From the NCBI RefSeq assembly GCF_020180945.1, contig NZ_JAIPUL010000001.1:124001-188000 (forward strand): a stretch of 64,000 nt of DNA. Direction: 5' to 3'. The number at the start of each line of letters is the position of its first letter. Positions within the stretch are counted from its first letter, which is position 1. Below are positions 26,728 through 47,775 of the stretch, one piece after another. This stretch comes from Lacticaseibacillus kribbianus (GTDB taxonomy: Bacteria > Bacillota > Bacilli > Lactobacillales > Lactobacillaceae). The notes under the pieces are model-generated. The model did not search any database, was not told where the DNA came from, and saw nothing but the letters and a program-made list of their open reading frames with translations. Both the position numbers and the translations under genes were made by a program.

Positions 26728-27882
26728 ATGCAAGCTAACCGTAACCTTGTGCGGGTCCTGAACGTGCAGCATGTGCTGCAGCAGGCCTTCAACTACGGGC
26801 CAATCTCCCGCAGCCAGATTTCCAAGAACCTCGGCCTCAACAAGGTCACGGTGTCAGACATTGTCTCCGAGCTGATCGACGCCGGCTACCTGCTCGAGTC
26901 CGGGCAGGGGGACAGCACCCGCAACGGTGGCCGCAAGCCGACCATCCTGCGCTTCAACGCCGACCTCGGCTACGTGGTCAACTTCGACCTCGGGGCCGAC
27001 TACATCGACCGCATGATCAACCGGCTCGACGGCACCGTGGTGGCCGTCGACCGCTACGAGACGGGCGACATGGCCATCGAAAAGCGGCTGGACCGGATGG
27101 TGGCGACCGCGCGCGACGTCGGACTGCCCGCCGGAATGCCGCTGTTGGGCGTCGGGGTGGCGATCCACGGCATCGTTTTTGAGAACCGCGTGCTTTACAC
27201 GCCGTTCATCGACTTCAAGGACCTGGACATCGCCGAGATTCTGCGGCGGCGCCTGGGCGTGCCGGTGGTGCTTCAAAACGAGGCGAACCTGAGCGTCATC
27301 TACGAGCGCGACTTCGAAAGCCAAGACGCGATCGACAACATCGTCTGCGTCAGCATCCACCGCGGCATCGGCGCCGGCATCATCCTGAACAACCGCCTGC
27401 ACACGGGCAAGGCGGGGGAAGCCGGCGAAATCGGCCAGACCATCCTGTACGACCGCGCGCTCAAGGGCCGCCAGCACCCGACCAAGATTGAAAGCCTCTG
27501 CTCCGAAACGGCGATCGTCGACCGGCTGCGCCAAGCCGCCGGGGACCAGACGCTGACGCGCGCGGACCTGGTGGCGCGCTACCACGAGGGTGACGCGCAG
27601 GCCATCGCGATCCTCGACGATTTTTGCTACGACATCGCCAACATCATCTACAACACCATCATCACGCTGGACCCGCGCCGCGTGGCGATTAACTCGCCGC
27701 TGATTGCGGAGGTGCCGGAGCTTCTGCCGGCCATCAAGGCCAAAATCCCGCACCTGACCACCCAGGAGACCAAGATCTACCTGGTCGACGACGTCCGCAA
27801 TTGCACGTTGCTAGGCGCCTGCGCGACCCTGATCCAGCAGCTCCTCGACGTCCGCCCGGGTGAGCTGAACTTCCGGCGGTAA
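26728..27882 (+). CDS. xylR: Xylose-responsive repressor XylR (ROK family), copy 1
   Basis: 384 residues. N-terminal winged helix (about 1-75, ISRSQISKNLGLNKVTVSDIV) plus ROK sugar-binding domain (LGVGVAIHGIV, GIGAGIILN). XylR represses xyl genes in Gram-positives and lets go on binding xylose. AAAGGAG precedes ATG, 2 nt after the GH1 stop, so it is the last gene of the esterase-GH29-kinase-GH1 operon. The DNA-reading helix is almost identical to that of the second XylR at 32.0 kb, so both should read the same operators. Confidence 0.92.
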   Translation: MQANRNLVRVLNVQHVLQQAFNYGPISRSQISKNLGLNKVTVSDIVSELIDAGYLLESGQGDSTRNGGRKPTILRFNADLGYVVNFDLGADYIDRMINRLDGTVVAVDRYETGDMAIEKRLDRMVATARDVGLPAGMPLLGVGVAIHGIVFENRVLYTPFIDFKDLDIAEILRRRLGVPVVLQNEANLSVIYERDFESQDAIDNIVCVSIHRGIGAGIILNNRLHTGKAGEAGEIGQTILYDRALKGRQHPTKIESLCSETAIVDRLRQAAGDQTLTRADLVARYHEGDAQAIAILDDFCYDIANIIYNTIITLDPRRVAINSPLIAEVPELLPAIKAKIPHLTTQETKIYLVDDVRNCTLLGACATLIQQLLDVRPGELNFRR

Positions 27883-27906
27883 CGCCTGCCGGGCTCCGGC
27901 GCGGAG

Positions 27907-28070
27907 GAGCTACGGCTTCCGGTGCCGGCCCGGGGCGGCGGAACGCGTGCGGCTCCCGCAAGCCCGAAGACCGGTCTTGCGACCCGCCGTTGCGGTAAGC
28001 TGGCAAAACCGGCCAGCCAACCGCAATGTCACGCTGGCTCGCCCCGGGCCGGCACCTCCAGCCGTGGCTC
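27907..28070 (+). repeat. Structured intergenic element, family 1, copy A
   Basis: 164-bp imperfect inverted-repeat element 24 bp after the xylR stop. Outer arms GAGCTACGGCT / AGCCGTGGCTC, a symmetrical TCC bulge on both sides, then a perfect 17-bp inner stem GGTGCCGGCCCGGGGCG / its complement (28040-28056). Inside: conserved GGCGGAACGCGTG, small stem CGCAAG/CTTGCG, GACCCGCC, and a long hairpin TTGCGGT..ACCGCAA (27990-28026). GCGTG (27944-27948) can pair with CACGC (28030-28034) to close the junction. No ORF. The rest of the 498-bp gap holds a further hairpin (28108-28184) and the xylA promoter. Confidence 0.75.
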
Positions 28071-28289
28071 GTCCGCGCCTCCGCCCTACAGCGTGGGCCG
28101 ACAGAAACGCCGCCGTGACACGGCAAGTAGGCAGTGGGCACAGTTCCGTAGCCAGTGTCCGCCGTCAGCCACCGTGTCAGGCGGTTGCTGGGGCTTCACC
28201 CTAGATGGCGCAGCACGGGTCAGATTCGGCTCGGCGGGGACCCGGTCGCGGTTTTTTGCGGGAAATTGAGAAAAAGTCCCGCCGGCGGC

Positions 28290-41111: not shown

Positions 41112-41582
41112 ATGCATGATCCAGTTTTCGGCACGAAAGATCCGACGCTGACCTACAAGACGCGCATCGGCGTCTACGGGGTGATTCCGGACGAAACCGG
41201 CAAGCGCCTGTTAATCCTGGAGGCGCCCAACCACGCGCTTTTCCTGCCCGGCGGCGAGGTCGAAGGTTCGGAAACCGACGCGCAGACGCTTGACCGCGAG
41301 CTGCTCGAGGAGTTCGGCGTGCGCGTCACCCAGGTGGCACTGCTCGGATCTTCCAGCGAGTACTTTTACTCGCACCACCGCCAGACGGCCTACTACCATC
41401 CGGCGACGTTCTACGCCGCGGCCGACATTCAGAAGGTGGCAGCGCCGCTGGAGGACTTCAACACGCTGATGCTGATGCCGGTGGAGCTGGCGGCCGCGCA
41501 GCTGAAGCGCCCGACGCACCGCTGGGCCGTCGCCCAGTGGCTGAAGCGCCAGGGTGACGAAGCGAACTCCGGCACGAACTGA
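41112..41582 (+). CDS. NUDIX hydrolase
   Basis: 156 residues. Complete Nudix box G-x5-E-x7-REUxEExGU in GEVEGSETDAQTLDRELLEE followed by FG. Family hydrolyses nucleoside diphosphates linked to another moiety; substrate not deducible. AGAAGGAG lies 11 nt before ATG. A TATAAT at 41013-41018 is the probable -10. Its stop codon is the first base pairs of the structured element copy B. Confidence 0.88.
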   Translation: MHDPVFGTKDPTLTYKTRIGVYGVIPDETGKRLLILEAPNHALFLPGGEVEGSETDAQTLDRELLEEFGVRVTQVALLGSSSEYFYSHHRQTAYYHPATFYAAADIQKVAAPLEDFNTLMLMPVELAAAQLKRPTHRWAVAQWLKRQGDEANSGTN

Positions 41583-41742
41583 CCACCGCTTTCGGCAACG
41601 GGCCAAGGCGGCGGAACGCGTGGGGCTCCCGCAAGCCCAAAGTGCGGTCTTGCGACCCGCCCTTGCTGTAAGCCGGCAAAGCCCGCCAGCTAACAGCAAT
41701 GTCATGCTGGCGCGCCTTGGCCCTCCGCCTCCAGTGGTGGTC
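41581..41742 (+). repeat. Structured intergenic element, family 1, copy B
   Basis: Outer arms GACCACCGCT (41581-41590) / AGTGGTGGTC (41733-41742) and inner arms GGGCCAAGGCG (41600-41610) / CGCCTTGGCCC (41713-41723) differ from copy A yet pair. Conserved interior: GCGGAACGCGTGGGGCTCCC, CGCAAG/CTTGCG stem, GACCCGCC, hairpin TTGCTGT..ACAGCAA (41663-41699), then ATGTCATGCTGG. Starts at the NUDIX stop codon; 100 bp further begins the convergent HD gene. Confidence 0.75.
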
Positions 41743-41843
41743 GGTTCGTGCCTCCGCGCGACAGTGCGTGTCGTTTGGTCCTGGCGGTTTTGACAATCAG
41801 CTTCAGCAGATACCACCTATCCAAGTGCGCGCCGCCCGACCGC

Positions 41844-44437: not shown

Positions 44438-44464
44438 CAAAACCGGCGTAGGCCGGTTTTTTTG
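44438..44464 (+). terminator. Rho-independent terminator after rpoE
   Basis: AAAACCGGC-GTA-GGCCGGTTTTTTT. Confidence 0.9.
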
Positions 44465-44465
44465 T

Positions 44466-44745
44466 CCCCAGGGCGACGCGGGGCGCACTTAGCGGGACGG
44501 ATTGCCTAGCTAGGGTGCTTGGACCGCACTATGGCCCGAGTGCCCTAGCGTAGCAAGCCGCTCCCGCGTTGCCGCGCGGAGCCCGACGATGACCAGGGCG
44601 ACGCGGGGCGCACTTAGGCCACCGGCCAGCGTAAGCCCAGTGTTTGGGCCGTACTTTGGCCCGAGCGCTGGGCTTAGCTGGACGGGTGGCCGTTGCCGCG
44701 CGAAGCCCGACGATGACCAGGGGCGAAGCGGGGCGCACTTGGGCC
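44466..44745 (+). repeat. Tandem structured repeats, family 2
   Basis: About two and a quarter units with a period near 125 bp. The constant part reads CGTTGCCGCGCG(G/A)AGCCCGACGATGACC..GGGGCGCACTT; it occurs at 44567-44615 and 44691-44740, and its right half at 44466-44490. Between constant parts each unit has a long hairpin of different sequence: unit 1 CTAGGGTGCT / AGTGCCCTAG enclosed by GCGGGA / TCCCGC; unit 2 AAGCCCAG / CTGGGCTT enclosed by GGCCACC / GGTGGCC. The 609-bp gap holds no believable gene; 44746-45042 shows nothing further that I recognise. Confidence 0.7.
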
Positions 44746-45042
44746 GCTCTACGAGGAAAACCCGGGCTCCGGTGCGACCGAGTGACTGGAGAAACCGTAC
44801 ACGCTGCGATTGGAGTTCGGCAGTTGACCAGTATGGGTATCGGCTGGCGTTTGTGGGGCGGGAGCTCTTGTCTCGTCGCCGTTGACTCGTGGTGGTCAAC
44901 ATTCTGCGCGTGACTGAGCGTTGGAATCACGAGATTGGGCGAAGTCGCCCCGTTTCCACACGGCCACCGATTACGCGGCGATGACGGCCTGCTGGCTCGC
45001 GTTCGCCGCGTCTCTCACAATTCAACCCAACGGAGGAACAAC

Positions 45043-47420: not shown

Positions 47421-47454
47421 CCGCAGAATGTCTCTGGCACCCCGGGCTCCGGCC

Positions 47455-47627
47455 CGGACCGACCACTGCTTCCGGCTCCGGTCCGGACCGGCGGAACGCG
47501 TGGGGCTCCCTGGAGCCCGTTTCGGTCTCCAGACCCGCCCTTGCTGTAAGCCAGCAGAACCCCGCTGGCTAACAGCAATGTCACGCTGGCTCGCCCCGGT
47601 CCTACGCCTTCAGCAGTGGTCGGACCG
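47455..47627 (+). repeat. Structured intergenic element, family 1, copy C
   Basis: Outer arms CGGACCGACCACTGCT (47455-47470) / AGCAGTGGTCGGACCG (47612-47627) pair at 15 of 16 positions; inner arms GGACCGG / CCGGTCC. Interior constant strings as in A and B. The small stem is CTGGAG/CTCCAG instead of CGCAAG/CTTGCG, and the long hairpin (47541-47578) has AGC/GCT in place of GGC/GCC: compensatory changes. It starts 34 bp after the pyrG stop. Confidence 0.75.
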
Positions 47628-47725
47628 AGCCTCCGCCCTACGCTGTGGTTTCGCCGTCAGGCAGCGGCGGTGTGATTGGTTACCCGAGGCTTTACTTTCA
47701 GATACAGACTAGGCCCACGCCAACT

Positions 47726-47758
47726 AAAGGGGCACCCGCGTTTTGCGGGTGCCCCTTT
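47726..47758. terminator. Bidirectional terminator between pyrG and the UvrA-like gene
   Basis: AAAGGGGCACCCGC-GTTTT-GCGGGTGCCCCTTT, perfect 14-bp stem; short T-runs both ways. Confidence 0.75.
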
Positions 47759-47775
47759 GCGTGTGTGCGGCCGGC

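Follow-up and report, generated by a model that had tools for sequence, protein, structure and literature searches.

The window, by which we mean the whole 64,000-nucleotide stretch of Lacticaseibacillus kribbianus contig NZ_JAIPUL010000001.1 that was analysed, contains three copies of a folded repeat, each at the 3' end of a gene. The initial annotation had named these genes xylR, NUDIX and pyrG, and Pfam supports their assignment to the ROK family, the NUDIX family and CTP synthase, respectively. The features of the locus are as follows:

26749-27882: ROK-family gene upstream of copy 1 (Pfam), its stop 4 bp before the unit
27887..28096, + strand: copy 1, full folded unit of about 210 bp (43-copy alignment A1)
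27950..27989, + strand: hairpin 1 of the three-way junction in copy 1, with a conserved C.T mismatch (A1 consensus structure)
27990..28026, + strand: hairpin 2 of copy 1, with a conserved A.A mismatch (A1 consensus structure)
28097..28170, + strand: right tail of copy 1, variable and probably within the inserted unit, its end inferred rather than fixed
41560..41769, + strand: copy 2, full folded unit, with the NUDIX stop codon (41582) inside its left arm
44762..44776, + strand: CCGGGCTCCGGTGCG, which resembles the left arm of the unit with the rest absent, a possible relic judged by sequence only
47440..47648, + strand: copy 3, full folded unit, which follows the pyrG stop (47420) and precedes the pyrG terminator
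about 47728-47765: pyrG terminator, 3' of copy 3

The copies had been described as elements of about 165 bp at 27907-28070, 41581-41742 and 47455-47627. These sites are right, but the extents are too narrow, as the repeated unit spans about 210 bp. The short constant strings reported for the three copies are present where they had been placed, and GGCGGAACGCGTG has three exact occurrences in the window, where 0.43 would be expected if one mismatch is tolerated. Folds of the three copies also bear out that their arms differ from copy to copy and are complementary inside each one. All three share one orientation and start near a plus-strand stop codon, as had been noticed, at stop-to-element distances of 4, -23 and 19 bp for copies 1, 2 and 3. 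The unit has the termini CCGGGCTCCGGC on the left and GCCTCCGCCCTACAnnGTGG on the right, and these borders are sharp, with similarity mostly ending there for most pairs of copies. Identity among the 43 aligned copies ranges from 67.9 to 90.0%, with a median of 79.5%.

The consensus fold of the 43 copies, obtained with RNAalifold, has an outer stem interrupted by regular internal loops, and two hairpins at a three-way junction. It comprises 67 pairs, 37 of which show compensatory changes on both sides, and such changes were seen in 38 of 41 pairs of a second, wider set, made up of 34 copies of several species. Pairing was found in 95.8% of the alignment cells compared with 85.6% after shuffling, none of 500 shuffles reached the observed value, and sliding the partner by one to three columns lowered pairing to 34-44%. 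The covariation noted in the initial annotation is thus real, as it beats both shuffled sequences and slid partners. Certain letters recur within this fold, namely the C.T mismatch of hairpin 1, the A.A mismatch of hairpin 2 and a GGAAC/TG internal loop. The mismatch and internal-loop letters persist in other genera, and the copies of genome G192 are without GGAAC. In that genome (L222-L227) the fold is embedded in a larger repeat of about 690 bp that itself contains sub-repeats, and the loop of hairpin 2 is variable while its stem is constant. Other variants carry an additional hairpin at the junction (L085, 1495-1691) or one short hairpin in place of the inner hairpins (L252 and L257). The comparison with Rfam that had been proposed gave no match to the fold: at the gathering threshold no family covers it, the one match, to a signal recognition particle RNA, lying outside the fold, and a search with copy 1 at E up to 10 returned just two weak microRNA matches below threshold. 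At these two settings, a known RNA family is ruled out.

A search of the L. kribbianus genome (2.79 Mb in 11 contigs) with copy 1 yielded 40 scored full copies, and a covariance model built from the 43 copies (R1) found 80. Such a search of the genome and its relatives had been suggested, and rather than no further copies it returned these 80 and more in Lactobacillaceae, the family that the initial annotation had rightly named. Almost all of the 80 are intact, and a single copy (C1:246468) is visibly truncated. Analyses given below for 79 copies omit C4:136088, which was not within a fetched locus. Model R1 matched 15 of 41 genomes, all of the genus Lacticaseibacillus, and a broader model (R2) matched 21 of 30 genomes of this genus. 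In an even sample of the order, R2 had matches in at least 25 of 395 genomes, all of them Lactobacillaceae and belonging to 7 of 80 genera, while in a phylum sample of 398 genomes it matched L. kribbianus alone; both searches scored 7 candidates per genome, so the numbers of positive genomes are lower bounds. Plasmids of L. paracasei also bear copies. No match was obtained when plasmids were queried with the G327 unit or L203, and three plasmid matches (L247-L249) contained no match to the covariance model. Spread by phages was considered and set aside, as a single query of a phage collection found nothing. On contig C1 the copies are clustered, with a variance of 4.6 against a mean of 1.4 per 50 kb. 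Clusters lie at 1.30-1.34 Mb and 1.42-1.51 Mb of this contig and include several convergent pairs 400-700 bp apart. Convergent pairs also occur in other genera (L202, L203 and L204), and one locus of G008 (L080, 928-1653) has four consecutive copies, three in one orientation and one in the opposite.

Placement was determined with gene calls from a simple codon-usage script. None of the 79 copies lies within a predicted ORF. The 3' end of a same-strand gene is upstream of 58 of the 79 copies, 32 of these 58 start at most 21 bp from the stop codon, and 4 of the 79 lie between divergent genes. In other genomes a same-strand upstream gene was found at 33 of 64 copies and divergent-gene sites at 6 of 64, a count for which two mixed sets pooled several genomes for training. 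Compared with 58 of 79 in L. kribbianus, this indicates that the strict orientation is a feature of its own genome.

Comparisons with relatives show that the element is often absent from orthologous sites. When 383 kb of L. parakribbianus (G010) were searched with the flanks of the 79 copies, both flanks were found for 10; the element is absent from nine of these sites, and the remaining one bears a very different copy. It is also absent after pyrG in all six relatives inspected and after NUDIX in all five, and at these element-free sites the adjacent genes nearly touch. However, 2 of the 23 named NUDIX loci contain a model match shortly downstream of the gene (L175 with 45.9 bits and L174 with 22.9 bits), which makes recurrent insertion or loss possible; given these and the one occupied L. 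parakribbianus site, some of the absences could be losses.

The ends of the inserted unit are clearest in genome G042, where units of 300-340 bp have terminal inverted repeats of about 20 bp (GTAAGTGTCAAC.. / ..TTTACACTAAC). Among the five G042 units with both ends readable, two have a target duplication (L220 with 9/9 and L217 with 8/9 positions) and three do not (L216, L219 and L253). In L. kribbianus, empty-site lengths and the AT profile make it seem that the inserted unit includes about 75 bp to the right of the fold. Averaged over 79 copies, a right tail of about 70 bp is AT-richer with a weak motif, and k-mer and Gibbs searches for a conserved right-tail motif produced nothing firm, so we dropped this candidate. 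Terminal repeats and a target duplication were not established in this genome, where the right motif is weak; at the pyrG copy a 7-bp direct repeat, CAACTAA, was noticed by eye.

Several candidates for a mobilising enzyme or autonomous copy were tried. The Y1 transposase (PF01797) has no occurrence in the L. kribbianus genome (G000), and across 20 genomes it was present in 5 of the 13 that have the fold and in 4 of the 7 that lack it, which shows no association. On these grounds a REP/RAYT system was rejected. In G042, a single inverted-repeat pair encloses one copy joined to the gene of an IS30-family transposase (NF033563, E 2.1e-74). This gene belongs to a 1178-bp IS30-family insertion sequence (L217, 1702-2879) inserted 24 bp inside the folded copy. 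The IS is nearly identical in G042, G022 and G000, elsewhere occurs without the fold, and lies beside a fold in 1 of its 10 G042 copies; as it is a separate element whose borders exclude the fold, an autonomous IS30 parent was discarded. A search of G042 with the terminal-repeat pattern gave 16 matches, and the ones inspected were folds, remnants or unrelated, with no parent IS in this one genome. The right-end pattern of L. kribbianus had 78 of its 79 matches within known copies, so a split, cargo-bearing version is not present there in that form. With Y1/RAYT and IS30 both rejected, neither a mobilising enzyme nor an autonomous copy was found.

Strong covariation is normally read as proof of a functional RNA. 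If pairing in RNA were selected, G.U should be far more frequent than A.C. The wobble test folded the copies without wobble pairs and counted 1x1 mismatches: the 79 L. kribbianus copies contained 47 G.T against 71 A.C, and 38 copies of relatives 12 against 32. Pooled, this is 59 G.T against 103 A.C, with p 0.0007 if the mismatches were independent; since related copies are pooled, such p-values are too small. As a control, ten tRNAs gave 8 G.T against 1 A.C, a small set with some stems out of register. Because G.T is not above A.C, the pairing looks DNA-level. Of the two strands, the better folder is mostly the complementary one, which lies opposite to the upstream gene: RNA energies favour it in 70 of 79 L. 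kribbianus copies and 29 of 38 copies of relatives, and DNA energies do so in 68 and 35 of them, respectively. This predicted strand bias fits a DNA fold and weakly favours the bottom strand.

The element also appears to change in place. Among G005, G009 and G041 there are nine orthologous locus pairs, six of which were displayed. In one of these both hairpins and the junction stem differ while the outer arms agree (L165/L191), in another the differences lie in hairpin 2 and a portion of the outer stem (L231/L241), and in a third both junction-stem arms differ (L230/L242). Three of the six thus show a block or both-arm change and the other three show none; two of the three undisplayed pairs are 99.9% identical across the whole locus. 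Modules of the fold combine freely, as 7 of 10 module pairs show all four allele combinations. The paired core has a within-genome divergence of 0.014 in G042, 0.052 in G327 and 0.061 in G192, whereas the right 95 bp reach 0.427, 0.455 and 0.161, respectively, although some of this tail sequence may be unrelated. An exchange of sequence among copies would account for the changes in place, the free combination of modules and a core so much less divergent than the tail. In E. coli, long palindromes have been reported to form hairpins and break, in the parts of the two studies covered (PMC4245961, PMC3315005), and such breakage might offer a route for exchange in the present element. These results bear out only part of the earlier statement that selection acts on pairing and not on sequence. 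G.T is not above A.C, hairpins can change as blocks at one locus, and conservation across genera extends to the letters of the inner loops and the junction; part of the pairing may thus stem from templated repair or exchange and not from selection.

Taken together, we think the element is probably a new non-autonomous, MITE-like mobile DNA repeat that is scattered over the Lactobacillaceae, folds as DNA and has been diversified by exchange between copies. It is short, has 80 copies in one genome with 0 of 79 in a predicted ORF, and shows insertion polymorphism between relatives. A non-autonomous element preferring gene ends was among the readings of the initial annotation, and it draws support from presence and absence in relatives, the sharp ends, the placement of 58 of 79 copies, and the inverted repeats and roughly 9-bp duplications of G042 (the latter in two of five readable units). 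A dead repeat would not show copies that are almost all intact, nor a paired-core divergence of 0.014-0.061 against 0.16-0.46 in the right tail. In the mechanism that we propose, a transposase would move the element in trans, with insertion beside the 3' ends of genes. DNA would be the folded form, as either a hairpin or a cruciform, and the strand opposite to the upstream gene is probably the better folder. The complementary arms may be maintained by hairpin-templated repair and by copies trading whole hairpins, for instance once a palindrome has broken, and the conserved loop and junction letters may be kept because a partner recognises them.

The element could otherwise be a 3'-UTR RNA that is co-transcribed with the upstream gene, folds, determines where mRNAs end, how stable they are or how they are processed, and owes its spread to mobility. 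In favour of this are the same-strand upstream genes of 58 of 79 copies (with 32 starts no more than 21 bp from the stop), the strong conservation of the stems, the conservation of the loops across genera, and a shared terminator-like hairpin with a T run after some G327 copies. Yet G.U is not preferred over A.C, the opposite strand folds better, just 33 of 64 copies elsewhere have a same-strand upstream gene and copies are missing at most orthologous sites, and we consider such a role unlikely. The better-folding bottom strand would be expected of a folded single-strand DNA recombination site akin to integron attC, on whose bottom strand a recombinase would act to insert it behind genes; the fixed orientation behind stop codons in L. 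kribbianus, the conserved unpaired and mismatched letters, and the sharp unit ends are also consistent with this. Integron attC sites have the end boxes RYYYAAC and GTTRRRY, but on inspection no boxes of this type are present at the ends of the A1 consensus, orientations are mixed, and the G042 target duplications point to a DDE-type transposase, leaving a site of this kind very unlikely. That an IS30-family insertion sequence gave rise to the element, or contains it as a terminal part, was suggested by the G042 copy joined to the transposase gene within one inverted-repeat pair. This is hardly credible, however, as the 1178-bp IS is separate, occurs elsewhere without the fold, sits 24 bp inside a copy, and is beside a fold in 1 of 10 G042 cases. 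A bolder form of the mobile-repeat reading is that the element represents a family-wide class of mobile DNA, in which an enzyme would recognise the mismatches and loops of the folded bottom strand, place copies behind stops, and swap or homogenise hairpins, such that covariation would arise without an RNA function. We regard this as speculative and rather doubtful.

Judged by their descriptions, the nearest kinds known to us would be QMITE2, the bcr repeats and ERIC. QMITE2 of Coxiella burnetii is described, in the part of the source covered, as having 7-9 bp direct repeats, 23-29 bp inverted repeats and a short core, with a foldable transcript found mainly in 3' untranslated regions (PMC10969869). 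By that partial description, the G042 units are similar in their duplications of about 9 bp and inverted repeats of about 20 bp; the present element differs in that its three-way-junction fold is kept over several genera, that the L. kribbianus genome has no clear inverted repeats or duplications, and that no parent insertion sequence is known for it. The bcr1-bcr18 repeats of the Bacillus cereus group are intergenic, foldable, present in tens of copies and often in untranslated regions; bcr1-3 are MITE-like, and bcr10 and bcr18 have been proposed as RNA elements, as portions of two reports describe them (PMC3446304, PMC2267715). As far as these portions go, our element is likewise intergenic, foldable, MITE-like and present in tens of copies, but it has another host group, and the wobble test points to DNA where bcr10 and bcr18 were proposed to be RNA. 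The ERIC sequences of enterobacteria are large intergenic palindromic repeats with copy numbers that vary between species, and at gene 3' ends they affect transcripts, according to the sections covered (PMC10969869). The element resembles ERIC as a large intergenic palindromic repeat and differs in its hosts and size, as far as this partial description allows. ERIC is a simple palindrome. Like REP/RAYT repeats, our element consists of palindromic intergenic repeats near gene ends, but unlike these it has no Y1 transposase in its own genome and no association with one across 20 genomes. Because its branched fold is kept across genera and its covariation looks DNA-level, we propose that it is a new family, a variant of MITE-like repeats. 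No description of the folded element was found in the literature searched, which lies outside most subscription journals and includes the parts covered of PMC11109978, PMC8632094, PMC3733652, PMC10969869 and PMC2267715.

Here, wobble pairs are not favoured although compensatory changes occur in 37 of 67 pairs and, in the wider set, 38 of 41. If the covariation is indeed DNA-level, covariation screens of repeats will need a control for wobble asymmetry. The hosts are food and probiotic lactobacilli, and with up to 80 copies per genome and sites behind essential genes such as pyrG, the element could affect transcript ends and genome rearrangement. The window also contains a second repeat family, with units of about 130-150 bp (CCAGGGCGGAG..GGAGCCCGACGA) in tandem at 44451-44735, which the possible left-arm relic at 44762-44776 adjoins. 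An association of this family with the flanks of the folded element was considered and rejected, as it was found at just 9 left and 5 right flanks of the 79 folded copies. Related copies of the second family are present in G001, G007, G010 and G013.
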